From Pseudomonadota bacterium (GTDB lineage Bacteria > Pseudomonadota > Gammaproteobacteria > Burkholderiales > Thiobacillaceae), in NCBI GenBank assembly GCA_030653935.1, contig JAURYL010000054.1, positions 1 through 56,991 on the forward strand: a stretch of DNA of 56,991 nucleotides, given 5' to 3'. The position numbers and the translations under genes are program-made. Shown piece by piece: positions 42,849 to 54,748 of the stretch. The notes under the pieces were generated by a model. That model was not told the DNA's origin, ran no database searches, and worked only from the letters and a program-made list of their open reading frames with translations. The number at the start of each line of letters is the position of its first letter. Within the stretch, counting starts at the first letter, position 1.

Positions 42849-43349
42849 ATGATGGCCAAGGCACGCGCTTCGGTACTGTTGTTCGCGACCCTGCTGGGAT
42901 TCTGGCTACTGCTGAACGGCTCGCTGGCCACGGATGTGCTGGTGATCGGTGTGATCGCGGCGTTGGTCATCACCCTGCTGTTTCGTGACAGCCTCGCGGT
43001 GGTCTCGGAATTTCGCGCCACCCCGCACGCCCTGATCACGGCGCCGTCTTATGTCTTCTATTTCCTCAAGGAACTGGTCAGGTCGAACTTGCGGCTGGCG
43101 AGCATCGTGCTCTCGCCGGCGCTGCCGCTGCGACCGGGCATCGTCAAGGTGCGCACCAGGTTGAAGAGCCGGATGGGGCGGTTGCTGCTGGCCAATTCCA
43201 TCACCCTCACCCCCGGCACCCTGACCGTCGAACTGGACGGTGAATGGCTCTATGTCCACTGGGTGACGGTGGAATCGGAAGACGTCGACGCGGCCACGGC
43301 CGACATCGTCAACGGTTTCGAGCGCTATCTGGAGGTCATGTATGGTTGA
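42849..43349 (+). CDS. MrpE/MnhE-like antiporter subunit (MbxA-like)
   Basis: A 166-residue membrane protein of the Na+/H+ antiporter MrpE family (PF01899 type). Two or three N-terminal membrane helices (LLFATLLGFWLLLNGSLA, VLVIGVIAALVITLLF, SYVFYFLKELV) are followed by the family core TLTPGTLTVELDGEWLYVHW near residue 120. In Mrp and MBH/MBS complexes this subunit is part of the ion-translocating module. It is the first gene of the operon, with a GGGAAGG ribosome site, and overlaps mrpF by eight bases. Confidence 0.93.
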   Translation: MMAKARASVLLFATLLGFWLLLNGSLATDVLVIGVIAALVITLLFRDSLAVVSEFRATPHALITAPSYVFYFLKELVRSNLRLASIVLSPALPLRPGIVKVRTRLKSRMGRLLLANSITLTPGTLTVELDGEWLYVHWVTVESEDVDAATADIVNGFERYLEVMYG

Positions 43350-43602
43350 AATCCTGGTTTATCTGGCGGCGACGCTGGTCGGCCTGGCACTGCTGCTGGC
43401 CCTCTATCGCTTCGTCAAGGGGCCGTCGGCCGCCGACCGCGTGGTCGCCTTCGATGTCCTCACCATCGTCGGCATCACCGGCATCGTCCTGGTGGCGCTG
43501 GCCGAAGGGCGCGGCATCTATCTCGACGTGGCGCTGGTCTATGCGCTGCTGTCCTTCCTCGGGGTGATCGTCATCGCCCGCTATCTGGAGCGCGGCCTGT
43601 GA
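43342..43602 (+). CDS. MrpF/MnhF-like antiporter subunit (MbxB-like)
   Basis: An 86-residue protein with three membrane helices. The family motif KGPSAADRVVAFDVLT (Asp in ADRV) is at about 29-44, and a later YLDVALVYALLSFLG is typical of MrpF. It overlaps mrpE by eight bases and mrpG by four. It belongs to the small-subunit trio E-F-G at the head of Mrp, MBH and MBS operons. Confidence 0.95.
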   Translation: MVEILVYLAATLVGLALLLALYRFVKGPSAADRVVAFDVLTIVGITGIVLVALAEGRGIYLDVALVYALLSFLGVIVIARYLERGL

Positions 43603-43940
43603 TCGACACGCCACTCAACCTGCTCGGCGCCCTGCTGCTGGTCGCCGGCGCCGCCTTCCTGCTGCTCGGCGGGCTGGGTCTGGTGCGTATGCCCGACCTG
43701 TTCAACCGCATCCAGGCCGGCACCAAGGCCACCACCCTGGGCACCCTGCTATCCCTGGCCGGGGTTGCCTGCCTGCAACCCGATTGGGGCCTGAAACTGT
43801 TGCTGATCGGTCTGTTCATCCTGTTCACCAATCCGATCTCGTCGCAGGTGCTGGCCCGCGCGGCGCACCGTAGCGGCGTGGAAAAGTCTTCGCTGACGTC
43901 CATCGACCGCCTCGCCGAAGACCAGGGAGCACAGCCATGA
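43599..43940 (+). CDS. MrpG/MnhG-like antiporter subunit (MbxC-like)
   Basis: A 113-residue protein with three hydrophobic helices (LLGALLLVAGAAFLLLGGLG; TTLGTLLSLAGVACL; LLLIGLFILFTNPISSQVLA). The MrpG signature LVRMPDLFNRIQAGTKATTLG and FTNPISSQVLARAAHR are both present. The C-terminal 20 residues are polar. The gene has four-base overlaps on both sides, so it is translated with its neighbours. Confidence 0.95.
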   Translation: MIDTPLNLLGALLLVAGAAFLLLGGLGLVRMPDLFNRIQAGTKATTLGTLLSLAGVACLQPDWGLKLLLIGLFILFTNPISSQVLARAAHRSGVEKSSLTSIDRLAEDQGAQP

Positions 43941-44236
43941 GCCCCCTGCTGACCGGTATGACCCTGGTGCTGTGCGTCGCGATGATCGTCGCGGCCCTGC
44001 TGGCCATACGCGACCCCTCCCCCGAAGTGGCGAAAACAGACACTGGCGGCCTGCCCATCGCCATCCTCGCCGCCGGCCTGGTCAGTCTGATCGCCTCGAT
44101 CCTGTTCCTAATTCTCGCCGCGCCCGATGTGGCGATGACCGAGGCGGCCATCGGCAGCGGCCTCACCACCTTCCTGTTTTTCTTCGTGCTGGGCCGAATC
44201 AGAAGGCATGAAACAAGCGGGGACAACCATGATTAA
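43937..44236 (+). CDS. DUF4040 / MbhD-like membrane subunit
   Basis: A 99-residue protein with three membrane helices. Its core LILAAPDVAMTEAAIGSG near residues 60-77 is the signature of DUF4040, which in Mrp antiporters is the C-terminal part of MrpA and in MBH/MBS is the separate MbhD subunit. Its presence as a free gene after MrpG agrees with the MBH/MBS plan and not with a standard Mrp operon, where MrpA leads. It overlaps the next start by eight bases. Confidence 0.9.
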   Translation: MSPLLTGMTLVLCVAMIVAALLAIRDPSPEVAKTDTGGLPIAILAAGLVSLIASILFLILAAPDVAMTEAAIGSGLTTFLFFFVLGRIRRHETSGDNHD

Positions 44237-44927
44237 ACGCTTCATCGCCCTCACGCTGCTGCTGGCCATCGGCGGCCTGTTCGCCAGCCTGCTGCTGGGC
44301 TACACGCCCGACAGTGAACTGAACCAGACCGCCCGCTACTACGCCGAGCGCACCTCCCCGGACATCGGCGCGGCCAACATCGTCACCGCCATCATCGTCA
44401 CCTATCGCGGCCTCGATACCCTGGGCGAAGTCACGGTGCTGTTCCTCTCCGCAGCCATCGTCGGCCTGGTCCTGGCCCTGGGCGGAAAATCCGGCAAGAC
44501 GGGGCGCGGCACGGTCCCGGTGGGCGAACTGCTGACCACCGGCACCCGCTATCTCGCGCCGCTGATCATGCTGCTGGGCGTCTATGTCTTCGTGAACGGC
44601 CACCTGACGCCGGGCGGCGGTTTCCAGGGCGGCGCCATTCTCGCCTCGGGCGTGTTGCTGCTGCTGCTGGCCGACCCGCTGAAACGCTTCAGCCACGTCT
44701 TGATCGCCACCATCGAATCCTTCGCCGGACTCCTTTACGTCCTCATCGGCCTGTTTGGCCTGGTCCTCGCCGGCGGTTTTCTCGACAACCGCTTCCTGCC
44801 CACCGGCGAACTGGGCGCGCTGTTCTCGGCCGGAGCGATCCCGCTGATCTATTCCCTGATCGGCCTCAAGGTCGGCGCCGAGTTCGCCTCGATGCTGGCC
44901 AGCCTGTCGGAATCGGAGACTTCATGA
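44229..44927 (+). CDS. MbhE-MbhF (MrpB) fused membrane subunit
   Basis: A 232-residue protein. The N-terminal half (about 1-95) carries the MbhE-type core VTYRGLDTLGEVTVLFLSA. The C-terminal half is MrpB (TTGTRYLAPLIMLLGVYVFV, NGHLTPGGGFQGGAILASG). In Mrp systems the first part belongs to the MrpA C-terminus, so this is a two-in-one subunit. ATG 44,229 is preferred over 44,208 because GGGGACA lies just upstream; both are in the tail of the DUF4040 gene. Confidence 0.9.
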   Translation: MIKRFIALTLLLAIGGLFASLLLGYTPDSELNQTARYYAERTSPDIGAANIVTAIIVTYRGLDTLGEVTVLFLSAAIVGLVLALGGKSGKTGRGTVPVGELLTTGTRYLAPLIMLLGVYVFVNGHLTPGGGFQGGAILASGVLLLLLADPLKRFSHVLIATIESFAGLLYVLIGLFGLVLAGGFLDNRFLPTGELGALFSAGAIPLIYSLIGLKVGAEFASMLASLSESETS

Positions 44928-45292
44928 TGCCCAGCATTGCCCAACTGGCCATGGCCACCGGCTTCATCCTGATCCTGATCGGCTTCTATGGCGCTCTGAC
45001 CCAGCGCAACCTGCTGCGCATGATCGTCGCCTTCACCCTCTCCGGCACCGGGGTCAACATCGTCATCGTCGCCATCGGCTACATGCACGGCCGCACCGCG
45101 CCCATCCTCGATGCCACCGTAAACGCCGCCGATGCCGTCAGCCGCGTCATCGACCCGGTGCCGCAAGCACTGGTGCTCACCGCCATCGTCATCGGCCTCG
45201 GTGTGACCGCCTTGATGCTGGCCTACGCCCTCAAGCTGCATGAGCAGCGGCGCAGCCTCGATATCGCCAAGTTCACGGAACTCAAATGGTAA
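44924..45292 (+). CDS. MrpC/NuoK-like subunit (MbxG-like)
   Basis: A 122-residue protein with three membrane helices, homologous to NuoK of complex I and MrpC of antiporters. Visible are GFILILIGFYGALTQRNLLRM near the start, a helix with NIVIVAIGY, and DPVPQALVLTAIVIGLGVTA, the MrpC-type third helix (in NuoK the Glu-rich helices differ). It overlaps the previous gene by four bases and the next by seven. Confidence 0.93.
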   Translation: MMPSIAQLAMATGFILILIGFYGALTQRNLLRMIVAFTLSGTGVNIVIVAIGYMHGRTAPILDATVNAADAVSRVIDPVPQALVLTAIVIGLGVTALMLAYALKLHEQRRSLDIAKFTELKW

Positions 45293-48200
45293 GCCCCCTC
45301 TATCTCATCGTGCTGGCGCTGGCCGCCGCTTTCCTGCTCGGGCTGCTGAATCCGGAACGGCGCGGCAGAGCCTACGCGGTCACGCTCGTGGCGCTCGCCG
45401 GCATGACCTTGATCTCGGCCGACTGGCTCTGGGCCTTCACCATGGAAGGCATCGACCCGGTGGACGTCTACACCGCCGGCGCCGAGCCGCCGTTCGCCAT
45501 CAACCTGCGCATGGGGCTGGCGGAAGCCGCGCTGACCCTGCTGGTGAACCTGACCGGCCTGCTCTCGGCGCTCTATCTGAAGGACGTCCTGCTGGCCGGA
45601 GGGCGGCGCACCATGGCCGTGCTGCTGATCTCCGTGATGGCGCTGGTCGGCATCATCCTCACCCGCGACCTGTTCAACCTGTTCGTGTTCTTCGAACTCG
45701 TGGTCATTTCCAGCGCCGGCCTGGTGCTGCTTGCCAACGACAAGGACGGCGGGCCGGCGAGTGGGTTATCACTCAGCGCCGGCTTCAAATACCTGATCGT
45801 CTCGCAATTCATTTCCGCGTTCCTGCTGCTCGGCATCATCTTCGCCTACCACGCCACCGGCACCCTCAACATCGACGGCATGGCCAATGCCTCGCTGGGG
45901 CTGGCGACCGGCGGCACGATTGCCTTCTTCCTGATGTTCATGGCCATCGTCGCCGAGTTGAAGCCCTTCCCGGCCAACGGCTGGGCGCTCGACATCTACG
46001 AATCGGCGCATCCCGCCTTCTCCGCCATTTTCTCCGCCGCCACCGGCGCCGCCGCGCTCTATGCGGTGGACAAGCTGCTGCTGATCGGCGGCGCCGAATG
46101 GTTGCCCATAGCGACCGGCATCGGCATCGTCACCTTCATCGCCGCCAACCTGTTCGCCCTGCCGCAGACCCATGACCGCCGCCTGCTCGGCTATTCCTCC
46201 ATCGCCCAGACCGGGCTGGTGCTGGTGGTCCTGGGCCAGCGCGATCTCCTCGGCGACAGCACCCCCTTCATCGCCTTCGGCCTGTTGATCTCCCACGCCG
46301 TCGCCAAGGCCGGGCTGTTCTGGCTCTCCGGCCTGCTGAAAAACCGGCAACTGGCGGACTGGGCCGCCCTGCGCCAGCGCCCACTGCTGGTCTTCGCCTT
46401 CGTCACCTTCACCGCCATGCTCACCGGCCTGCCGCCCTTCCCCGGCTTCTACGCCAAGTGGGAACTGGTGCATCAACTGGCCGGCGCGGGCCAATTCACG
46501 CTGCTGGGCTTGATTTTGCTTGGCGCGCTGATCGAGGCCGGCTACCTGTTCCGCTGGTTCGGCTACCTCATGAAGCGGGAAGCGCCCGTCGAGACCGTCC
46601 CCTGCACGGGCCACAAGGTCGGCCCCGTGCTCGTCGCCGTCGCCGCCGGCTGGGCGCTGGCTTATCTCTGGGGTGATCTCGCCGGCGGCCTGTTCGGCCG
46701 CGACAACCTGCTCCTGGCCCTGCCGCTGCTGTTCGCGCTGAGCTTCCTGCTGCTCGACTGGCTGCCCGCCTGGATCAAGAACAGCCTGGCCATCGCCGGC
46801 ATGGTGGCCTTCTTCCTGCTCACCTGGGGCGAATACGACCCGCTGCGGCTGATCTTCGCCATCATCTTCCTCATCGGCGGCGCCCTGACCCTGCTCGCCA
46901 GTTATTCCGTCCACGGCCGGCGCATCGGCTTCTACCCGGCGGCGATGCTGATGTACGCCGGGATGGTGATGCTGATCCGCGCCACCACCTCGTTCGACTT
47001 CTTCGCCGCCTGGGAACTGCTCACCGTCGGTTCCTATTTCCTGATCCTGCGCGGCAAGCATTCCGAACCCCATGCCCTGTCCTACATCCTGTTCTCGCTC
47101 GGTGGCGCTTTCCTGATCCTGGCCGGTTTCGCACTCGCGGCGGCTGGCGCGCCTCAGTTCGACCTTGCGTCCCTGGCGCAGGTGGCGGCACCGGCCGCGC
47201 CCTGGGTGTTCGTGCTGCTGGCGGTCGGTTTCATGACCAAGACCGCCGCCATCGGCCTGCACATCTGGCTGCCCGGCGCCCACGCCGAGGCGGAAACCGA
47301 CGTCTCGCCGATGGTCTCGGGCATCCTGCTCAAGGCCGGGCTGTACGGGATGATGGTGCTGCTGCTGGCGATGGGCAAACAACAACTGTATGGCGTCGAA
47401 CTGACCCATGTCCTGCTCTGGATCGCCGCCCTGACCGCGCTGATCGGCAACCTGATGGCTGTGTTCCAGGAAGACGCCAAGCGCCTGCTGGCCTACTCCT
47501 CCATCGGCCAGATGGGCTATGCCCTGTTCGGCCTGGCGCTGATGAACCATCTGGGCTGGCTGATGGCGCTGGTGTTCGTCATCAACCACTACATCTACAA
47601 ATCGATGCTGTTCCTGGCCGTGGGCGGTGTCGCCAAACGCACCGGCACCCGCGAGATGTACAAGATGGGCGGCCTGATCCGGCTGATGCCGCTATCCTTC
47701 ATCGCGGTGCTGATCGGCATCATCGCCGTCTCGGGCGTGCCGCCGCTGTCCGGCTTCGGTGGTCGCTGGGTGTTCTACAACGCCATCATGTCGGCCGAAT
47801 ACCGTCTGCCCATGGTGGTGTTGTTCATGGCCGGCCCCATCGCCTTCCTCTATCTGTTCCGGCTGATCTACACCATCTTCCTCGGCCAGTTGAAGGATGA
47901 ACTGCGGCGGGTGAAGGAAGCGCCGTTCTGGATCGTCCTGCCGCAGATGATCTATGTCGCCCTGCTGCTGGTGTTCGCCGTGGTCCCCGGCCTGGCCCTG
48001 CGCCACGTCGACGCCTATCTCAACCAGTTCTTCCCGGAAGGCGGCCTGCACTGGGGTGGCGGCACGATCATCAGCGATTACGGCTACTGGAACCCGGTCG
48101 CCATCATGATCATCGTCGGCGTGATCTTCACCACCGTGTTCGCCCTGCTGCTGATCGTGAACCGCAAGGCCCAGATGGTGAAGCAGTTCAACATCGTGTT

Positions 48201-48441
48201 TTCCGCCGAACGTCCGTTCCGCCCGGAGACCACCCATTACGCCTGGAATTTCTACGCCCCCTACCGCAAGGCGATGGGCTTCCTGACCCAGCCCTTCGTC
48301 ACCCGTTTCTGGGACACCCTGGCTGACCTGCTGCACACCGCCGGCGACCTCGGGCGGCGGCTCTATGACGGCAACGGCCAGAGTTACGGCTTCCACTTCC
48401 TGGCTTTCGTCGTCATCGTTTTCTTCGTGGGAGGGATCTGA
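45286..48441 (+). CDS. Fused double antiporter-like subunit (MrpD/NuoL + MrpD/NuoM type)
   Basis: A 1051-residue chain with two complete antiporter-like modules, about 1-500 and 520-1000, then a C-terminal extension. Module 1 has Glu137 (FVFFELVVIS) and Lys226 in AELKPFPANGWALDIYESAH, an unusual variant of the Lys-helix. Module 2 has the standard Glu577 (FAAWELLTVGSY), Lys652 (MTKTAAIGLHIWLPGAHAEA) and Lys683 (ILLKAGLYGM). Such Glu/Lys pairs carry ions in complex I and Mrp. MBS/Mbx has two separate MrpD-like subunits (H' and H) at this place; here they are joined. The last roughly 60 residues (from KQFNIVFSAERPFRPETTHY) are soluble and may bridge to the next subunits. Confidence 0.93.
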   Translation: MVSPLYLIVLALAAAFLLGLLNPERRGRAYAVTLVALAGMTLISADWLWAFTMEGIDPVDVYTAGAEPPFAINLRMGLAEAALTLLVNLTGLLSALYLKDVLLAGGRRTMAVLLISVMALVGIILTRDLFNLFVFFELVVISSAGLVLLANDKDGGPASGLSLSAGFKYLIVSQFISAFLLLGIIFAYHATGTLNIDGMANASLGLATGGTIAFFLMFMAIVAELKPFPANGWALDIYESAHPAFSAIFSAATGAAALYAVDKLLLIGGAEWLPIATGIGIVTFIAANLFALPQTHDRRLLGYSSIAQTGLVLVVLGQRDLLGDSTPFIAFGLLISHAVAKAGLFWLSGLLKNRQLADWAALRQRPLLVFAFVTFTAMLTGLPPFPGFYAKWELVHQLAGAGQFTLLGLILLGALIEAGYLFRWFGYLMKREAPVETVPCTGHKVGPVLVAVAAGWALAYLWGDLAGGLFGRDNLLLALPLLFALSFLLLDWLPAWIKNSLAIAGMVAFFLLTWGEYDPLRLIFAIIFLIGGALTLLASYSVHGRRIGFYPAAMLMYAGMVMLIRATTSFDFFAAWELLTVGSYFLILRGKHSEPHALSYILFSLGGAFLILAGFALAAAGAPQFDLASLAQVAAPAAPWVFVLLAVGFMTKTAAIGLHIWLPGAHAEAETDVSPMVSGILLKAGLYGMMVLLLAMGKQQLYGVELTHVLLWIAALTALIGNLMAVFQEDAKRLLAYSSIGQMGYALFGLALMNHLGWLMALVFVINHYIYKSMLFLAVGGVAKRTGTREMYKMGGLIRLMPLSFIAVLIGIIAVSGVPPLSGFGGRWVFYNAIMSAEYRLPMVVLFMAGPIAFLYLFRLIYTIFLGQLKDELRRVKEAPFWIVLPQMIYVALLLVFAVVPGLALRHVDAYLNQFFPEGGLHWGGGTIISDYGYWNPVAIMIIVGVIFTTVFALLLIVNRKAQMVKQFNIVFSAERPFRPETTHYAWNFYAPYRKAMGFLTQPFVTRFWDTLADLLHTAGDLGRRLYDGNGQSYGFHFLAFVVIVFFVGGI

Positions 48442-48443
48442 GC

Positions 48444-49349
48444 ATGGATTTCGAGTGGATCAAGATTCCCTATGCCCTGCTCACGCTGTTCATCGTCGTC
48501 AACTTCGGCATGCTGCTGGGCGCCTTCATCCAGAAGATCGGCGCCCGGGTGGGCCGCCGCCACGGCATTCCGATCTGGCAGAACTATGCCGACCTGATCA
48601 AGAACTTCGGTCTGCGCACCTCCATCACCCACGGCGTGATGTTCTACCTGGGCCCGGTGTTCCGCCTCACCGGCGGTATTGGCCTGTTGCTGTTCGTGCC
48701 GACCATCTACGGCTCGGAGATGTTCTCCAACCTGTCGTTCTCGGGCGATCTGATCCTGGCGCTGTACTTCGTGTTCTTCGGCACCCTGGGCATGGCGCTC
48801 GGCGCCGGCGAGAGCGGCCACCCGCACGCGGCCATCGGCATCAGCCGCGGTCTGTCGCAGGTGAGCATGGCCGAACTACCCTTCGCTCTGGCCGTGTTCG
48901 CGGTGGCCTTGCAGTACCAGACCCTTTCCGTGACCGACATCGTCGCCGCGCAACAGGGTGGCATCGCAAATTGGACGCTGTTCACCAACCCGGTGGCGGT
49001 GGCGGCGGCGATGCTCGGCTTCCTCGGCTCGATGATGCGCCCACCCTTCGACGTGGTGATCGCGCCGCAGGAGATCCCCATCGGCCCGCCCACCGAGTAC
49101 CACTCCTCCTACCTGGCCCTGATGCAGACCAACCGTGCGATCTTCCCCATCGCCAAGATCGTCATCTACATGAATCTGTTCTTCGGTGGCGCCGCGAGTT
49201 GGCCGGTGTTCTTCCTCAAGGTGTTCCTGATCTACATGGTCTCGGTGATCGTCGGCGTGGTCTTCCCGCGCTTCCGCGTCGAGCAGTCGATCCGCTGGTT
49301 CCTGGTCTGGGCGGTACCGCTGGGCGTTCTTTCCATCGTGTTGGTGTGA
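48444..49349 (+). CDS. NuoH/MbhM-like membrane anchor subunit
   Basis: A 301-residue protein with about eight membrane helices, homologous to complex I NuoH and hydrogenase MbhM/HycD. The loop AFIQKIGARVGRRHGIPIWQ matches the NuoH loop that meets the quinone cavity but lacks its exact consensus. Later motifs are GGIG, ESGHPHAAIGISRGLSQVSM, AELPFALAVF and RPPFDVVIAPQEIPIGPPTE. It begins three bases after the antiporter stop. It joins the ion-pumping arm to the redox subunits. Confidence 0.93.
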   Translation: MDFEWIKIPYALLTLFIVVNFGMLLGAFIQKIGARVGRRHGIPIWQNYADLIKNFGLRTSITHGVMFYLGPVFRLTGGIGLLLFVPTIYGSEMFSNLSFSGDLILALYFVFFGTLGMALGAGESGHPHAAIGISRGLSQVSMAELPFALAVFAVALQYQTLSVTDIVAAQQGGIANWTLFTNPVAVAAAMLGFLGSMMRPPFDVVIAPQEIPIGPPTEYHSSYLALMQTNRAIFPIAKIVIYMNLFFGGAASWPVFFLKVFLIYMVSVIVGVVFPRFRVEQSIRWFLVWAVPLGVLSIVLV

Positions 49350-49365
49350 GTGTTGGCAAATCAAG

Positions 49366-50007
49366 ATGAAACCTGAACTTCTGAAACGCATGGTCAAGGG
49401 CCCCGACGGCGTCGAGTTCGAGGTCGAGCCGATGCGCGACTATTACTGCGACGCCCCGCCCACGGTGCAGCACGGCGCTTACATCAAGATCGTCGAGGAC
49501 TTCTTCAACTGGGCGCGAGCCGAATCGTTGTGGATACTCGGCTTCGGCACCGGCTGCGGCGCCATCGAGATGCGGCCGCTGATGACGCCGCGCTTCGATG
49601 CCTACCGCTACGGCATCCAGTGGCGCCCCACCCCGCGCCAGGCCAACCTGCTGGTGATCTCCGGTTATTTGTCCACCAAGACCCTGAAGCGTGCCATTCG
49701 CGCCTACGAGCAGATGCAGAGCCCGAAATACGTGGTGGGCCTCGGCTCCTGCACCATCAACGGCGGCATGTACTGGGATTCCTACAACACCATCAAATGC
49801 CTGGACCAGTACATGCCGGTGGACCTCTACATCACCGGCTGCATGCCCCGCCCCGAAGCCCTGCTGGCCGGCTTCGAGGACCTGAAGAAACTGATCCGGG
49901 CCGGCAAGGCCGAGGGCGCCAACCAGTACGCGGAACGCTTCGATTGGTACAAGGCCAACCAGAAGCAGGTCATCCACGACTGGGACATGCCGGACTACAA
50001 CTGGTGA
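49366..50007 (+). CDS. NuoB/MbhJ-like [4Fe-4S] subunit, N2 ligand missing
   Basis: This 213-residue homologue of NuoB carries the cluster next to the active site in complex I-type enzymes. Three ligands are visible: Cys64 (GTGCGAIE), Cys129 (GLGSCTINGGMY) and Cys159 (ITGCMPRPEA). The partner of Cys64 is Gly65; in NuoB this is CCAIE and in hydrogenases CNGCDIE, so the cysteine directly before xIE is absent. The codons are TGC GGC. A further Cys28 (DYYCDAPP) is near the N-terminus. Spacing to the following gene is large (91 bases) because of an inverted repeat. Confidence 0.92.
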   Translation: MKPELLKRMVKGPDGVEFEVEPMRDYYCDAPPTVQHGAYIKIVEDFFNWARAESLWILGFGTGCGAIEMRPLMTPRFDAYRYGIQWRPTPRQANLLVISGYLSTKTLKRAIRAYEQMQSPKYVVGLGSCTINGGMYWDSYNTIKCLDQYMPVDLYITGCMPRPEALLAGFEDLKKLIRAGKAEGANQYAERFDWYKANQKQVIHDWDMPDYNW

Positions 50008-50025
50008 TTGCCATGGCAACGATCC

Positions 50026-50092
50026 GTAGGGTGCGCCGTGCGCACCATTCCAAACCAGCAACCGAGGCATTGGTGCGCACGGCGCACCCTAC
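50026..50092. repeat. Inverted repeat, perfect 22-bp arms
   Basis: GTAGGGTGCGCCGTGCGCAC plus CA (50,026-50,047) is exactly complementary to 50,071-50,092, around a 23-base loop. It fills the gap between the nuoB-like and nuoC-like genes in an operon whose other genes overlap or nearly touch. This GTAGGGTGCGCCGTGCGCAC motif is a familiar intergenic repeat in proteobacteria. Confidence 0.92.
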
Positions 50093-50098
50093 AAAGCA

Positions 50099-50647
50099 AT
50101 GACCATGCATGCGCTTTATGACCGGCTAAAAGCCCTCTTCCCCCTCGGCGAACTGACCGAGCAGCGAGCCAATCTGGCTTTCGCCACGCTGCCGGTGGAA
50201 TACCTGCGGCCCGCCCTGCTGCATCTACGCGACCAGGAGGGCTATACCCATCTGGTACTGCTGACGGCGGTGGACTGGCTGGAGGATGGCCAGGAAAACT
50301 GCCAATTCCAGCTCACCTACCTGCTCAACAACCGCGCCGAGAATCTGGACATTGGCCTGCGCGTCATGCTGCCCCGGGAGGGCACCACCATGGCCAGCAT
50401 CCACGACCTCTGGCCGACGGCGGCCACGTATCAACGCGAGCTGCGGGAGATGTTCGGCATCGACTTCCCCGACAGCCCCGGCGTCTACGAGGAATTCATC
50501 CTCGAAGGCTGGAACGACATCCCGCCCTACCGGCGCGACTTCGACACCCTGAAATACGCCAACGACAGCTACGCCCAGCGCGCCGGGCGGGAAACCCGCG
50601 ACCCGGAGACGCACATGAAAGAACAACTCTATCCGGGCAAATCCTGA
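50099..50647 (+). CDS. NuoC/MbhK-like subunit
   Basis: A 182-residue soluble protein of the 30-kDa complex I subunit family. It shows LLTAVDWLED (the TxxDW-type strand), RVMLPREG, LWPTAATYQRELREMFGI (family signature ERExxDmfGI) and the end NDIPPYRRDF. It has no cofactor. It holds the large subunit in place. Start ATG 50,099 or ATG 50,105; both lie just after the hairpin. One base separates it from the next gene. Confidence 0.93.
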   Translation: MTMHALYDRLKALFPLGELTEQRANLAFATLPVEYLRPALLHLRDQEGYTHLVLLTAVDWLEDGQENCQFQLTYLLNNRAENLDIGLRVMLPREGTTMASIHDLWPTAATYQRELREMFGIDFPDSPGVYEEFILEGWNDIPPYRRDFDTLKYANDSYAQRAGRETRDPETHMKEQLYPGKS

Positions 50648-50648
50648 C

Positions 50649-51824
50649 ATGGCGTATACCCCCGACCGTTCCCAATACCCGGCCAGGAAGGCCGACGGCA
50701 GCCTGGACATCGACCTGACTTCGGGCAAGTTCCTGAAGCTCTGGCAAGGCCCCAATCACCCCGGCATCACCGGCAACATGTCGGTGGAACTCACCGTCTG
50801 CGGCGATGAAGTGGTGGAAGGCAAGGTTCACGTCGGCTACCTGCATCGCGGCTTCGAGAAGCTGATGGAGCGACGCACCTTCATCCAGTGCTTCCCCATC
50901 GTCTGCCGCATCTGCGTGCCGGAACCGGATTTCAACGAATACTGCTACGCGGCGGCCGTGGAAGAACTGGCCGGCATCGAGGCGCCGGAGCGGGCCAACT
51001 GGATTCGCGCCCTGATCCTGGAAATGGGCCGCATCAACAGCTATCTGATGTACCTGGGCGGCCAGTCCGGCGCCCTTGGCCAGGGTGTCATCGGCCAGTG
51101 GACCACTTATGCCCGCGACCTGATGCTGGACCGCTTCGAGGAGATGACCGGCGCCCGCATTTACCACATGTTCATCATGCCCGGCGGCGTCCGCGATACC
51201 CTCCCGGACGGTTTCGAGGGGCGCATGGAAGAAACCCTGAAGGAAATCGAGCGCACCCTGAAGGACGTGTGGGACGTGATGTTCTGCAACGCCGTGTTCA
51301 AGAAGCGCACCGTCGGCATGGGCGTCATCGACCCCGCCTGGCTGGATGCCTACGGCGTCACCGGCCCCAGCGCCCGCGCCGCCGGGGTGGCCAAGGATGT
51401 GCGCCGCGACGCGCCCTATCTGGTCTATCCCGAGCTCGATTTCGAGCCGGTGATCGGCCATGACTCCGACATCTACACCCGCGCCGACGTGCGCCGCCGC
51501 GACCTGCTGATGTCCGTCGACCTGATCCGCCAGATCCTCGCCAAAATGCCGAAGGACGGCCCGATCATGGCCCCGATGCCGAGCATGCTGCACTGGAAGA
51601 TTCCGCGCGGCGAAACCTATATCCGCGGCGAATGTTCGCGCGGCGAATACGGCTACTACCTGGTCACCGACGGCTCTGGCTACCCGCGCCGGGTCAACGT
51701 GCGCGGCCCCTCCTACACCCACGCCATGGCCCTGCTGGAACGAATGATCGTCAACATCAACATTTCCGACGTGGCCTCGCTGATGGTGTCGCTACACACC
51801 TATCCGCCGGAGATTGAAAGATGA
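50649..51824 (+). CDS. NuoD/MbxL-like large subunit without NiFe site
   Basis: This 391-residue protein aligns to NuoD: GPNHPG, HVGYLHRGFEKLMERRTFIQ, AVEELAGIEAPERANWIR, RGECSRGEYGYYLVTDGSG. It keeps one CxxC (Cys86-Cys89, VCRIC) where hydrogenases have their first pair and NuoD has DRLD. At the C-terminus, where hydrogenases have DPCxxC, it reads SDVASLMVSLHTYPPE, so no nickel can be held. The second His of the NuoD HPxxHG (Thr41) and the quinone-site Tyr after DRLD (Val90) are also absent. This pattern fits MBS/Mbx large subunits. It overlaps the next gene by four bases. Confidence 0.93.
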   Translation: MAYTPDRSQYPARKADGSLDIDLTSGKFLKLWQGPNHPGITGNMSVELTVCGDEVVEGKVHVGYLHRGFEKLMERRTFIQCFPIVCRICVPEPDFNEYCYAAAVEELAGIEAPERANWIRALILEMGRINSYLMYLGGQSGALGQGVIGQWTTYARDLMLDRFEEMTGARIYHMFIMPGGVRDTLPDGFEGRMEETLKEIERTLKDVWDVMFCNAVFKKRTVGMGVIDPAWLDAYGVTGPSARAAGVAKDVRRDAPYLVYPELDFEPVIGHDSDIYTRADVRRRDLLMSVDLIRQILAKMPKDGPIMAPMPSMLHWKIPRGETYIRGECSRGEYGYYLVTDGSGYPRRVNVRGPSYTHAMALLERMIVNINISDVASLMVSLHTYPPEIER

Positions 51825-53620
51825 GCGTGCGAGACATCCTCTCCCCCTTCACCGCCTGGAAGCACCTATTCCGCGACCCGGTCAGCATCGAAGACCCGCT
51901 CAACCGGCAGGCGGCGCCGCGCTATCGCGGCTTCCACCAGAACGACATGGAAAAGTGCATCGGTTGCGGCACGTGCGAAACCATCTGCCAGAACGGCGCC
52001 ATCGACATGCTGCCGGTGGCGGGCATCGAAACCAAGCAGGGTGATTCCGGCCTGCGCCCGCGCATCGACTACGGCCGCTGCTGCTGGTGCGCCCTGTGCG
52101 TCGATGTCTGCATGACCCAATCGCTCACCATGTCCAACGCCTACACCTGGGTGGAGAGCGATCCCGACGCCTTCCGCTTCACCCCGGGCGTGGACAAGAA
52201 AGCCTGGGACCAGACCGAACTGGGCTACCAGCGGCCGGACAACCACCGCCTGACCGGCGCCATCCGCGCCGACATGGGCGAAATGGCGCCCGAGGTGCGC
52301 ATCGACAACTTCCAGGAAATCGTCAACGGCTACACGATCGAGCAGGCCATCCTGGAGGCGGATCGTTGTGTGGCCTGCGGCCTGTGCGTCGCCACCTGCC
52401 CCACCCACATGGCGATCCCGCAGTACATCGCCGCGGTGCGCGACGGCGACTACGAGCGCGGCCTGAAGCTGCTCTACGAGACCAACCCCTTCTCCCAGGT
52501 GTGCGGCCGCGTCTGCACCCACAAGTGCGAGGATGCCTGCGCCGCGCGGCACGAGGGCGACCCGATTGCAATTCGTTGGCTCAAGCGCCACATCACCGAT
52601 CAGGTGCCGTTCGAGCGCTACCGCGACATCGTCGGCGACCCCGCCCCGGCCACCGGCAAGAAAGTCGCCATCATCGGCGCCGGCCCGGCGGGCCTGACCG
52701 CCGCCTTCGACCTGGCACGCATGGGCCACGCGGTCACGGTGTTCGAGGCCAAAGCCGCCGCCGGCGGCATGACCCGCTACGGCATCCCGGAATACCGCCT
52801 GCCCTACGAAGCACTGGACCGCGATGTCGCGCTGATCGTCTCCATGGGGGTCGAGGTCCACTACAACACCTGCATCGGCCTCGACCATTCCATGGACGAC
52901 CTGCGCCAGCAATATGACGCGGTACTGCTGGCCATCGGCCTGCAACAGGGCCGGCAAACCCGCATCCCCCACTCCGACCACGAAAAGGTCTACCGCGCCA
53001 TCGACCTGCTGCACAAGATCACCGCCGGCGAGCCGTTCGAGTTGCCGCATTGCGCCGTGGTGATCGGCGGCGGCAACGTCGCCATGGACATCGCCCGCTC
53101 CCTCGCCCGCATGCAGAAACAGCAATACGGCCAGGTGGATGTGGTGGTCACCGCCCTGGAAGAGCAACAACACTTCATGGCCGACCCGGACGAGATCAAG
53201 GAAGCCCTGGAAGAGGGCATCGTCATCCGCGACAACTGTGGCCCGCAAGGCTGCGAGATCGACGCCAGCGGCAAACTGGTCGGCCTGAAAACCTGGAAGG
53301 TGCTCTCCATCTTCGACCAGAACCGCCGTTTCGCCCCGGTCTATGACCCGGCGGGCGAGACCATCCACGCCTGCGACACGGTGATCGAGGCCATCGGCCA
53401 GTACGCCGATACCTCGCTGCTGGGCGATGCGCTGACGGAAATGCTCGAGTGGGATCGCGGCCGCATCAAGATCGACATCGACGGCAGCACTTCCGAGCCG
53501 TGGCTCTGGTCGGCGGGCGATTGCGTCGCCGGCCCCGACGTCGTGCATGCCGTGGCCGACGGCCACCGCGTCGCCGCCAGCATCCACGCGACGTTGACCC
53601 ATCAGGAGAAGACGACATGA
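51821..53620 (+). CDS. 8Fe ferredoxin-NAD(P)H flavoprotein fusion (NuoI + GltD/NfnL-like)
   Basis: A 599-residue fusion. The N-terminal NuoI/MbxN-like part has two [4Fe-4S] sites: Cys46-49-52-56 with Cys97, and Cys87-90-93-97 with Cys56. A third group, Cys183-186-189-193 (CVACGLCVATCP), leads into the DPYD_II/GltD-type cysteines 228, 232, 236 and 240 (QVCGRVCTHKCEDAC). The flavoprotein follows: FAD loop GAGPAG (286-291), NAD(P)H loop GGGNVAMDIARSLARM (416-431) and C-terminal FAD site SAGDCVAGPDVVHAVADG. The enzyme would pass electrons between NAD(P)H or ferredoxin and the membrane complex. The presence of a pyridine-nucleotide module joined to the NuoI-type subunit is the feature that departs from archaeal MBS. 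Confidence 0.93.
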   Translation: MSVRDILSPFTAWKHLFRDPVSIEDPLNRQAAPRYRGFHQNDMEKCIGCGTCETICQNGAIDMLPVAGIETKQGDSGLRPRIDYGRCCWCALCVDVCMTQSLTMSNAYTWVESDPDAFRFTPGVDKKAWDQTELGYQRPDNHRLTGAIRADMGEMAPEVRIDNFQEIVNGYTIEQAILEADRCVACGLCVATCPTHMAIPQYIAAVRDGDYERGLKLLYETNPFSQVCGRVCTHKCEDACAARHEGDPIAIRWLKRHITDQVPFERYRDIVGDPAPATGKKVAIIGAGPAGLTAAFDLARMGHAVTVFEAKAAAGGMTRYGIPEYRLPYEALDRDVALIVSMGVEVHYNTCIGLDHSMDDLRQQYDAVLLAIGLQQGRQTRIPHSDHEKVYRAIDLLHKITAGEPFELPHCAVVIGGGNVAMDIARSLARMQKQQYGQVDVVVTALEEQQHFMADPDEIKEALEEGIVIRDNCGPQGCEIDASGKLVGLKTWKVLSIFDQNRRFAPVYDPAGETIHACDTVIEAIGQYADTSLLGDALTEMLEWDRGRIKIDIDGSTSEPWLWSAGDCVAGPDVVHAVADGHRVAASIHATLTHQEKTT

Positions 53621-54117
53621 GCGAAGGCAGCCACGGTATCGACCGTCTGCGCGGCAAGACCACCCTGCGCGAAATCCTCGAAGTCGCCACCGGCTTCGAG
53701 GCCAGCGCCCGCGACTTCTATACGGCCCTGATCCCCAAGGTCAGCAAACGCATCCGCTACCTGGTGGAAGAACTGGCCGCCGAGGAGCAGTCGCATTACG
53801 ACCTGTTCGGCGCCCTCGCCCAACGCACGGATATCGCGGAACAGGTCAAGGAAGAGATTCAGCGCACCGCCAGCGACAGCAAGTTCTCCGACTGCCTGCA
53901 TCTGCCCGACCTGGGCGACAACCCCGACGACCAGGCCGTGCTGCAATACGCCATGGGCCGCGAACACGCCGCCATGACGCACTACGGTGAGCTGGCCGAA
54001 ACCGCCCCGGCCGGCCCGATCCGCGAGCTGTTCCAGTACCTGGCCAGCGAGGAGACCAAGCACAAGCTGGAGCTGGAAAAGATCTATTACGCGACGGTGC
54101 ATAGCGGCGGGGTCTAG
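53617..54117 (+). CDS. Rubrerythrin-like di-iron protein (no rubredoxin part)
   Basis: A 166-residue four-helix ferritin-like protein. Di-iron ligand patterns are visible: Glu in GFEASARDFY, ExxH in AAEEQSHYDLF, Glu in GREHAAMTHYGE and ExxH in ASEETKHKLELEK. There is no rubredoxin-type cysteine pair. Rubrerythrins reduce peroxide with electrons from NAD(P)H via partner proteins. ATG 53,617 overlaps the stop of the flavoprotein gene by four bases, so it belongs to the operon and may take electrons from it or protect its clusters; that is inference. Confidence 0.92.
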   Translation: MSEGSHGIDRLRGKTTLREILEVATGFEASARDFYTALIPKVSKRIRYLVEELAAEEQSHYDLFGALAQRTDIAEQVKEEIQRTASDSKFSDCLHLPDLGDNPDDQAVLQYAMGREHAAMTHYGELAETAPAGPIRELFQYLASEETKHKLELEKIYYATVHSGGV

Positions 54118-54155: not shown

Positions 54156-54449
54156 CTACCGCCTGCCACCGGCATATCCGGGCCGTCTGTGCTGATGGCG
54201 CACGATCAGAATCCGAATGCCGTTTTCGAGATGTCGATAGATGACCGAGTACGGAAAAAGCCTCATCGGGAAGGTTCTTCGACCTCTCGTAGTCGGTATG
54301 CCGATAGCGGGATGTTCAACCAAGAGCATGGCGACACGCTCGAACTCTTCGAGAAAACGCGCCGCGACCACCCGTCCGGCATGCTCGCTGTAAAAATCCT
54401 GGGCGTCGGCAAGATCGCGCTCCGCGCCAAGATGGAGCGAGTAGATCAT
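54156..54449 (-). CDS. ParE/RelE-superfamily toxin
   Basis: This 97-residue protein has the ParE/RelE fold pattern: two N-terminal helices (LADAQDFYSEHAG, ARFLEEFERVAMLLVEHPAIG), then strands with RTFPMRLFPYSVIYRH and ILIVRHQHRRPGY. The ending RHQHRRPGYW-like is characteristic of ParE-type toxins, with GY and a C-terminal basic tail. It is the second gene of a two-gene unit and overlaps the antitoxin gene by four bases. The target (gyrase or mRNA) cannot be told from sequence alone. Confidence 0.92.
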   Translation of the reverse strand: MIYSLHLGAERDLADAQDFYSEHAGRVVAARFLEEFERVAMLLVEHPAIGIPTTRGRRTFPMRLFPYSVIYRHLENGIRILIVRHQHRRPGYAGGRR

Positions 54450-54667
54450 CGCGAAAGTCTTGCTCGTAGCCGGGCGATGGCATCCTCCCCTGGAACCTCC
54501 GCGACCACACCGGATTCCAGTTCGGCCTCCCGTCGATCCGCTTCACGCTCCCAGGCTTCCTCAACTTCGGGGTCTGAATCGAGGTTGGTGATCAACCGCT
54601 CAAGCAGATGCGAGCGGTCGACGGGAGCCAACCGCAGGATTTCGGCTTCCAGGACTTCCAGGTTCAT
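54446..54667 (-). CDS. Addiction-module antitoxin (TIGR02574-type)
   Basis: A 73-residue acidic helical protein that begins MNLEVLEAEILRLAPVDRSHLLERL and carries SDPEVEEAWEREADRREAEL and GEDAIARLRARL, the pattern of the 'putative addiction module component' antitoxins that pair with ParE. The start at 54,667 matches family members; the frame continues to 54,709. Together with the toxin it forms a type II toxin-antitoxin operon, which usually represses itself. Confidence 0.88.
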   Translation of the reverse strand: MNLEVLEAEILRLAPVDRSHLLERLITNLDSDPEVEEAWEREADRREAELESGVVAEVPGEDAIARLRARLSR

Positions 54668-54748
54668 GCTCACGTTGATCTCCGCTATGTTGGACGCATT
54701 GCCGGTCATAGTTTGCCACGCGGCAAAGCATGATGGGTTCGCTACCGC

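Follow-up and report, generated by a model that had tools for sequence, protein, structure and literature searches.

The window analysed here is the whole 56,991-nucleotide stretch of contig JAURYL010000054.1 (assembly GCA_030653935.1). Between positions 42849 and 54117 it carries 13 plus-strand genes for a membrane complex related to MBS, the membrane-bound sulfane reductase of the archaeon Pyrococcus furiosus, a respiratory complex in which ferredoxin drives the reduction of polysulfide with ion pumping. In order, these genes encode MrpE, MrpF, MrpG, MbhD (DUF4040), an MbhE-MrpB fusion, MrpC, a fused MrpD-MrpD protein, NuoH, NuoB, NuoC, NuoD, a NuoI-GltD fusion and a rubrerythrin. Neighbouring genes overlap or lie at most 16 bases apart, the 91 bases between the NuoB and NuoC genes being the exception, and each of the 13 products exceeds the Pfam cut-off for an expected family; we regard the set as a real operon. 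An original prediction made from the DNA letters had given the same order, strand and span and had counted twelve genes instead of 13.

MrpE (42849..43349; 166 aa; MbsA-type; PF01899, 138 bits) is followed by MrpF (43342..43602; 86 aa; MbsB-type; PF04066, 66.5 bits), MrpG (43599..43940; 113 aa; MbsC-type; PF03334, 87.4 bits) and MbhD (43937..44236; 99 aa; MbsD-type; PF13244, 54.9 bits). The MbsE-type MbhE-MrpB fusion (44208..44927), whose start may lie a few codons 3' of 44208, matches PF20501 with 36.3 bits and PF04039 with 84.8 bits; MbsE is itself described as a two-part protein, with transmembrane helices 1-2 and 3-6 (PMC7684303). Next come MrpC (44924..45292; 122 aa; MbsG-type; PF00420, 79.9 bits), the antiporter-like MrpD-MrpD protein (45286..48441; 1051 aa), which has two PF00361 stretches and corresponds to an MbsH-MbsH' fusion, and the NuoH/MbsM-type membrane anchor (48444..49349; 301 aa; PF00146). 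The peripheral proteins are NuoB (49366..50007; MbsJ-type), NuoC (50099..50647; 182 aa; MbsK-type; PF00329, 80.8 bits), NuoD (50649..51824; 391 aa; MbsL-type) and the 599-aa NuoI-GltD protein (51821..53620), in which an MbsN-type 2[4Fe-4S] domain is joined to a GltD/NfnL-type flavoprotein that binds FAD and NAD. The ferritin-like rubrerythrin (53617..54117; 166 aa; PF02915, 45.4 bits) was taken to start at 53617; the mechanical list of open reading frames (ORFs) has it start at 53449. Set against the MBS subunit list of PMC7684303, subunits A, B, C, D, E, G, H, H', M, J, K, L and N are matched one for one, with two fusions, the assignment of A, B, C, D, E, G and K being by Pfam family only.

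Among solved structures, the core proteins matched P. furiosus MBS (PDB 6U8Y) best. NuoD scored 309.3 bits against 6u8y_L, ahead of Thermus complex I at 210.6 bits, NuoB 213.5 bits against 6u8y_J (next match 135.6) and NuoH 131.5 bits against 6u8y_M (next match 48.9). For MrpD-MrpD the first match was 6u8y_X, with 188.8 bits over residues 478-1048, and the second was 6cfw_H of MBH, with 155.7 bits; 6u8y_H scored 143.2 bits over the whole sequence, with its best stretch at residues 6-266 of the first half. The NuoI part scored 81 bits against MbsN, ahead of complex I NuoI at 45 bits.

Relatives of the operon in public genomes fall into two types, A, to which the window belongs, and B, whose NuoD residues are compared below. 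A NuoD tree was built from 54 rows, comprising 32 type A rows (of 76 distinct), seven type B, 11 complex I, three hydrogenase and one MBS row. Types A and B and MBS formed one clade (support 100/99), and a tree holding type A with the hydrogenases was rejected (p 0.004); one holding it with complex I was not (p 0.085). In a tree of NuoD, NuoB and NuoH together, with 20 rows (ten type A, five type B, MBS, two hydrogenases and two complex I, one of these without NuoH), the same clade received 100/100 and placing type A with complex I was rejected (p 2.65e-6). Within the clade, the partner of the MBS row was type A when NuoD was used alone (89/61) and type B in the combined tree (88/85); the program issued a long-branch warning for both trees, and MBS is a single long-branch row. 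Neither tree contained sequences of archaeal Mbx, Ech, Ehr or Fpo, or of Thermotoga maritima MBX. Together, the comparisons support the view that the core belongs to the MBS/MBX branch and to neither complex I nor the group-4 hydrogenases. The original prediction had named an MBS/Mbx-like complex and had called for a tree of the NuoD-like subunit against complex I and the hydrogenases; the structure matches, the clade with MBS and the three-cysteine NuoB described below all agree with it, and the NuoD-like protein grouped in neither of the other families.

The active-site residues point the same way. NuoD columns were read from an alignment with HycE, HyfG, MBH and MBS and fell on the published H38 and Y87 of Thermus Nqo4 and C85 and C385 of MbsL. 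All 76 distinct type A rows carry T41 (His38 site), C86, R87, C89, V90 (Tyr87 site), E92 and Y385; the same columns read E, P, R, C, V, D and C385 in all seven type B rows and T, L, R, C85, V, E and C385 in MBS. The quinone-site His and Tyr are thus absent from 83 of 83 distinct NuoD rows, and are present in the 11 complex I rows, which have no Cys at these sites; the three hydrogenases carry four nickel cysteines. The window NuoD keeps one of these four, C89. It had been correctly foreseen that the C-terminal nickel ligands are lost, whereas the first CxxC motif, said to be kept, is broken: C89 is its first cysteine (MbsL C85), the second is replaced by E92, and C86 is new. Identity of the operon as complex I or as a hydrogenase was rejected on residues and trees, the lone non-rejection being the p of 0.085 above.

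A cysteine at position 86 occurs in none of the hydrogenase, complex I, MBS or type B rows. Since the deep relatives L136, L137 and L140 keep C86 and have Ala at 89, C86 is what marks the lineage; a C86-C89 CxxC disulfide as catalyst was dropped on the same grounds. We take C86 to adjoin a conserved Arg near the cluster, placing it by homology with complex I. In the window NuoB the proximal cluster has C64, C129 and C159 as its only cysteines, and these three ligands were found, as a sequence pattern, in 75 of 75 rows; the NuoB of the host's own complex I carries a CC pair, which the operon's NuoB lacks. At the position of MbsJ C25 the 75 rows have Gly (68), Cys (six, read as the type B motif) or Ala (one). 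Of MbsL C85 and C385 and MbsJ C25, type A keeps only the C85 equivalent, and type B keeps C85 and C385 (7/7). In MBS itself the three-ligand cluster with an open iron was shown to be the catalyst, C25, C85 and C385 being dispensable and C25 non-ligating (PMC7684303).

The NuoI-GltD protein matches NCBIfam NF010590 (PRK13984), a putative oxidoreductase family named without a function, over its full length with 851 bits, below the family's 946-bit cut-off. All 17 cluster cysteines are kept in 92 of 92 rows (85 without genomes fetched twice), and the chain matches bear out the expected joining of a GltD/NfnL-like flavoprotein to a NuoI-type subunit. In GltD of the NADPH type, the second Rossmann motif is followed by an RR pair that binds the 2'-phosphate of NADPH. 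The window has L446-E447 at this site, and none of the 85 rows has the pair: L/M-E stands in 79, L/V-Q in three and RK in three. RR is present in the GltD of the host's own genome and in the NfnL of T. maritima and P. furiosus, and the GltD of the deep relative L140 reads YRR; NADH-type relatives of thioredoxin reductase offer an analogy for the fingerprint without RR. Because the pair is missing throughout, we predict NADH as the cofactor of most members and NADPH as a possibility for a few. For the NAD(P)H module of the original prediction, the NADPH variant is thus weakened and NADH is more likely. The three rows with RK in the GltD part (L102, L114 and L115) belong to type A and may represent a cofactor switch.

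In the second half of MrpD-MrpD, E577, K652 and K683 align with E128, K217 and K248 of MbsH'. All 56 fused proteins compared have E577, K683 and R827, as well as E137 and K226 in the first half; K652 is not kept in all of them. The charged residues thus fit a pump, as far as an alignment can indicate one.

A scan of public genomes returned at least 586 pattern matches; 557 of these were relatives, and the best 80 loci among them were kept for counts. Among these 80, 75 are type A, three type B and two have no NuoD in the stretch; all 13 genes are present in 54, and at least 12 genes in the same order on one strand in 56, several of the loci without the full set being cut by contig ends. Of the 60 ORFs that cluster with MrpD-MrpD, 56 have a fused frame of at least 980 aa. 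Such recurrence excludes a chance assembly of the operon and makes type A a widespread proteobacterial gene set, no oddity of the window's genome. The search for the same gene order in other genomes, suggested at the outset, was thus successful, and the special betaproteobacterial background then proposed gave way to a set that recurs across Proteobacteria. By their titles the 80 loci are proteobacterial, save one 'uncultured bacterium' (L112), and carriers span Alpha-, Beta- and Gammaproteobacteria and Magnetococcales, cultured strains among them; named carriers include Thiothrix, Thiohalocapsa and Sedimenticola as well as Celeribacter, Rhodobacter and Tropicimonas. In the family of Thiohalocapsa marina, the fused MrpD-MrpD was found at E 1e-100 or better in 19 of 116 genomes drawn from a larger group, 15 copies having 67-80% identity and four 41-45%.

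Within the family to which the host belongs, a full or partial high-scoring NuoI-GltD copy occurs, as read from the match rows, in 18 of 117 genomes; nine of these carriers are type A, seven type B and two untyped for want of NuoD. The gene nifH occurs in 10 of the 18 carriers versus 23 of the 99 others (Fisher p 0.009, kinship ignored) and in 13 of 30 named carriers. A nitrogenase link as a requirement was rejected, nifH being absent from the window's genome and from genome G021, both rated 100% complete. As a marker of anaerobes, NrdD gave no link among the 30 named carriers (six at the limit used, four over the cut-off), and dsrA, found in 106 of the 117 family genomes, showed no contrast with operon presence.

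Upstream and downstream, no gene family recurs in more than five of the loci (ORFs of 100 aa or more, surveyed over only about 1 kb on the upstream side), and we infer from this that the operon moves as a self-contained cassette. Sixteen chosen flanking ORFs compared with Pfam had no common theme, and among them a [NiFe] hydrogenase was met only in Magnetovibrio: in Magnetovibrio blakemorei (L070, 12368-16265) the genes for its small and large subunits come after the operon in the same orientation. Carriage of the operon on plasmids was rejected, for the 246 plasmid records matching NuoD are all below 60% identity, the 40 listed lying at 34-37%. Deep relatives of type A were seen in L136 and L137 (genomes G402 and G436), L138, L139 (G457) and L140 (G367), with fused MrpD-MrpD proteins of 41-45% identity and 38% for a second copy in G457. 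Inserted ORFs (PIN, DUF2442, a DNA methylase, an aspartyl protease and unknowns) interrupt the operon in L136 and L137.

The rubrerythrin lies directly 3' of the operon in 73 of the 80 loci, and its di-iron ligand residues are present in 80 to 86 of 86 rows. Sixteen rubrerythrins were compared; 14 fall into two sequence types that cut across A and B, and those of L054 and L098 into neither. In L091 and L096 (titled Chromatiaceae and Lamprobacter) a rubrerythrin match stands upstream of MrpE, and in locus L094 none was found. The type B loci L110, L111, L113 and L028 have a mosaic NuoI-GltD gene whose NuoI part is of type B and whose GltD part is of type A: residues 1-270 are 55-85% identical to the B row L027 versus 32-60% to the A rows L049 and L040, and residues 300-540 are 77-98% identical to L049 and L040 versus 42-63% to L027, which places the module exchange point between residues 270 and 300. 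As both the mosaic genes and the rubrerythrin types cross between A and B, the flavoprotein and the rubrerythrin can work with either core.

The host genome measures 3.8 Mb and is rated 100% complete. It holds complex I on another contig and two copies of dsrA, and because the nearest rows of the NuoD tree are labelled Gallionellaceae and Thiobacillaceae, the host is likely a betaproteobacterial sulfur oxidiser. Seventeen antiporter-like PF00361 stretches were counted in this genome, those of the window and of complex I included, and further PF00361 gene groups lie on contigs C56, C69 and C72. Immediately 3' of the operon, a ParE-type toxin and an Unstab_antitox-type antitoxin form a pair on the minus strand (54156-54709). 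On the 5' side, the minus strand between 27777 and 41920 carries signalling genes, including a 1405-aa CheB-CheR-PAS-GGDEF-EAL protein, a response regulator-PAS-GGDEF-EAL protein and a CHASE8 hybrid kinase, together with a TonB receptor and a YfiR-like protein.

The function that we favour, with confidence no better than even, is that type A would be a reversible, ion-coupled NADH:polysulfide oxidoreductase, in which a flavoprotein of the NADH type takes the place of soluble ferredoxin as the electron entry to an MBS/MBX-branch complex. The genes, their kinship and the residue patterns are shown above; the cofactor, the acceptor, the coupling, the direction and the roles of C86 and the rubrerythrin we infer as follows. 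Electrons would pass from NADH to FAD and two clusters of the GltD part, then through the two [4Fe-4S] clusters of the NuoI part to the proximal [4Fe-4S] cluster of NuoB. Since that cluster has only three Cys ligands, one iron may be open and, as in MBS, could cleave the S-S bond of polysulfide or another sulfane where a hydrophobic chamber ends. This redox reaction would power both the Mrp Na+/H+ module and the MrpD-type pumps. Because NADH provides little driving force, the complex should be able to run either way: towards sulfur reduction at low sulfide, and at high sulfide towards ion-driven reduction of NAD+ with sulfide as the donor. What sets this variant apart is probably C86 of NuoD, as a ligand or a catalytic thiol, and the rubrerythrin probably disposes of peroxide or O2 around the open cluster where the host is exposed to oxygen. 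In T. maritima, mbxA was reported to rise 4.36-fold with elemental sulfur, S0 (PMC9431562).

Several observations weigh against this assignment. Relative to MBS the active site has lost the C385 and C25 equivalents and gained C86, which may mean that type A acts on another substrate or that its cluster is closed by C86. NADH yields little energy over polysulfide at standard state. The preference for NADH is read from one fingerprint, and with RK in three of 85 rows the cofactor may vary. In the second MrpD half, H336 and K399 of MbsH' are replaced by F764 and R827. To judge by their names, many carriers (Celeribacter, Rhodobacter, Tropicimonas) are heterotrophs, and the flank survey of the 80 loci, in which no gene family recurred more than five times, showed no recurring sulfur genes beside the operon.

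A bolder version, which we consider doubtful, is that the complex would be the sulfur-globule-reducing enzyme of proteobacteria that respire zero-valent sulfur, a reversible NADH-sulfane pump with a C86-paired open-iron site. NADH would serve to respire zero-valent sulfur, the bacteria's own stores or that of the environment, in darkness or under anoxia, and electrons could flow from sulfide to NAD+ at the expense of the ion gradient, free of quinone; the active site would be new, the open-iron cluster working with the lineage-specific C86 of NuoD, which would either replace the fourth ligand or act as a catalytic thiol. The enzyme that reduces the sulfur globules stored inside purple and colourless sulfur bacteria is not known to have been named.

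Foremost among the alternatives, and still unlikely, is an ion-coupled ferredoxin:NAD+ oxidoreductase substituting for Rnf, with ferredoxin docking at the NuoI clusters, the flavoprotein exchanging electrons with NAD(H) and the membrane arm coupling the potential gap to Na+ or H+. The clusters of the MBS peripheral arm do accept electrons from ferredoxin (PMC7684303), and an older proposal made P. furiosus Mbx a ferredoxin:NADP+ oxidoreductase (PMC6349859). However, electrons moving within NuoI-GltD would presumably bypass the proximal cluster, the presumed origin of coupling at the membrane. Nor is PFOR as defined by its family model essential: it exceeds the TIGR02176 cut-off in 77 of the 117 family genomes, yet the window's genome, with its 100% completeness rating, has no match over it.

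Less probable is a second NADH:quinone oxidoreductase with its quinone site built from other residues. MBS and complex I share a chamber for a hydrophobic substrate (PMC7684303), and the NuoD tree by itself tolerates a union of type A with complex I. Against this, T41 and V90 replace the quinone-site His38 and Tyr87 in every type A row, NuoB has no CC pair, the combined tree rejects the union (with only two complex I rows, one without NuoH), and the host already possesses a complex I. Lower again stands a mainly reverse use in lithotrophs, whereby electrons from sulfide or persulfide would enter at the proximal cluster and the ion gradient would drive them to NAD+, bypassing the quinone pool; the two dsrA copies of the host and the presence of Thiothrix, Thiohalocapsa and Sedimenticola among the carriers accord with it, but other carriers are heterotrophs by name, and with dsrA in 106 and the operon in 18 of the 117 family genomes the complex is no standard part of sulfide oxidation. 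Very unlikely is a part in pH control or the response to oxidative stress, as a Na+/H+ antiporter under redox control whose electrons go to the rubrerythrin: that protein's usual place directly 3' and the crossing of both flavoprotein and rubrerythrin types between cores would suit it, whereas the entire NuoB/C/D/H arm would presumably be superfluous and the rubrerythrin match is upstream in L091 and L096 and none was found in L094.

Among known systems, P. furiosus MBS is alike in all 13 subunit types, the three-cysteine proximal cluster, the lack of the quinone His and Tyr, the kept C85 equivalent (C89) and the T at the His38 site; unlike it, type A is bacterial, has H fused to H' and N to GltD, has an added rubrerythrin, lacks the C385 and C25 equivalents and has gained C86. 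Complex I (NuoA-N) shares the NuoB, C, D, H and I families and antiporter-like subunits, and type A subunits score against NADH-quinone oxidoreductase models, but the operon has an Mrp E/F/G module, no CC pair and no quinone His and Tyr, and Pfam detected no NuoE, NuoF or NuoG among its 13 genes. The MBX operon of T. maritima presumably includes a separate GltD-like gene. That complex, compared by description only, is a bacterial 13-subunit homologue of MBS (PMC9431562). The Mbx-like cluster of the betaproteobacterium 'Ca. Symbiobacter mobilis' is a different thing, a six-gene Hyf-like set that its authors judged to be no sulfur system (PMC4053972). In the open-licence literature searched, which yielded no other account of this 13-gene form, the closest printed notice is the 'putative Mrp-Mbx complex' of the Riftia symbiont Endoriftia, listed among complexes of unclear function or direction; like the hydrogenases, it has first neighbours in common with genes of the reductive tricarboxylic acid cycle in a co-expression network (PMC11636981). 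Its identity with type A, judged by description only, is plausible because type A occurs in Sedimenticola and symbiont genomes (L053, L042, L087). MBS has been discussed as bridging hydrogenases and complex I (PMC7684303), and the characterised MBS-type cases met in the literature are those of anaerobic thermophiles; type A adds a proteobacterial relative with an NADH-type module and a rubrerythrin, which, if our reading is true, would connect NADH to the sulfur pool without quinones in many facultative bacteria.

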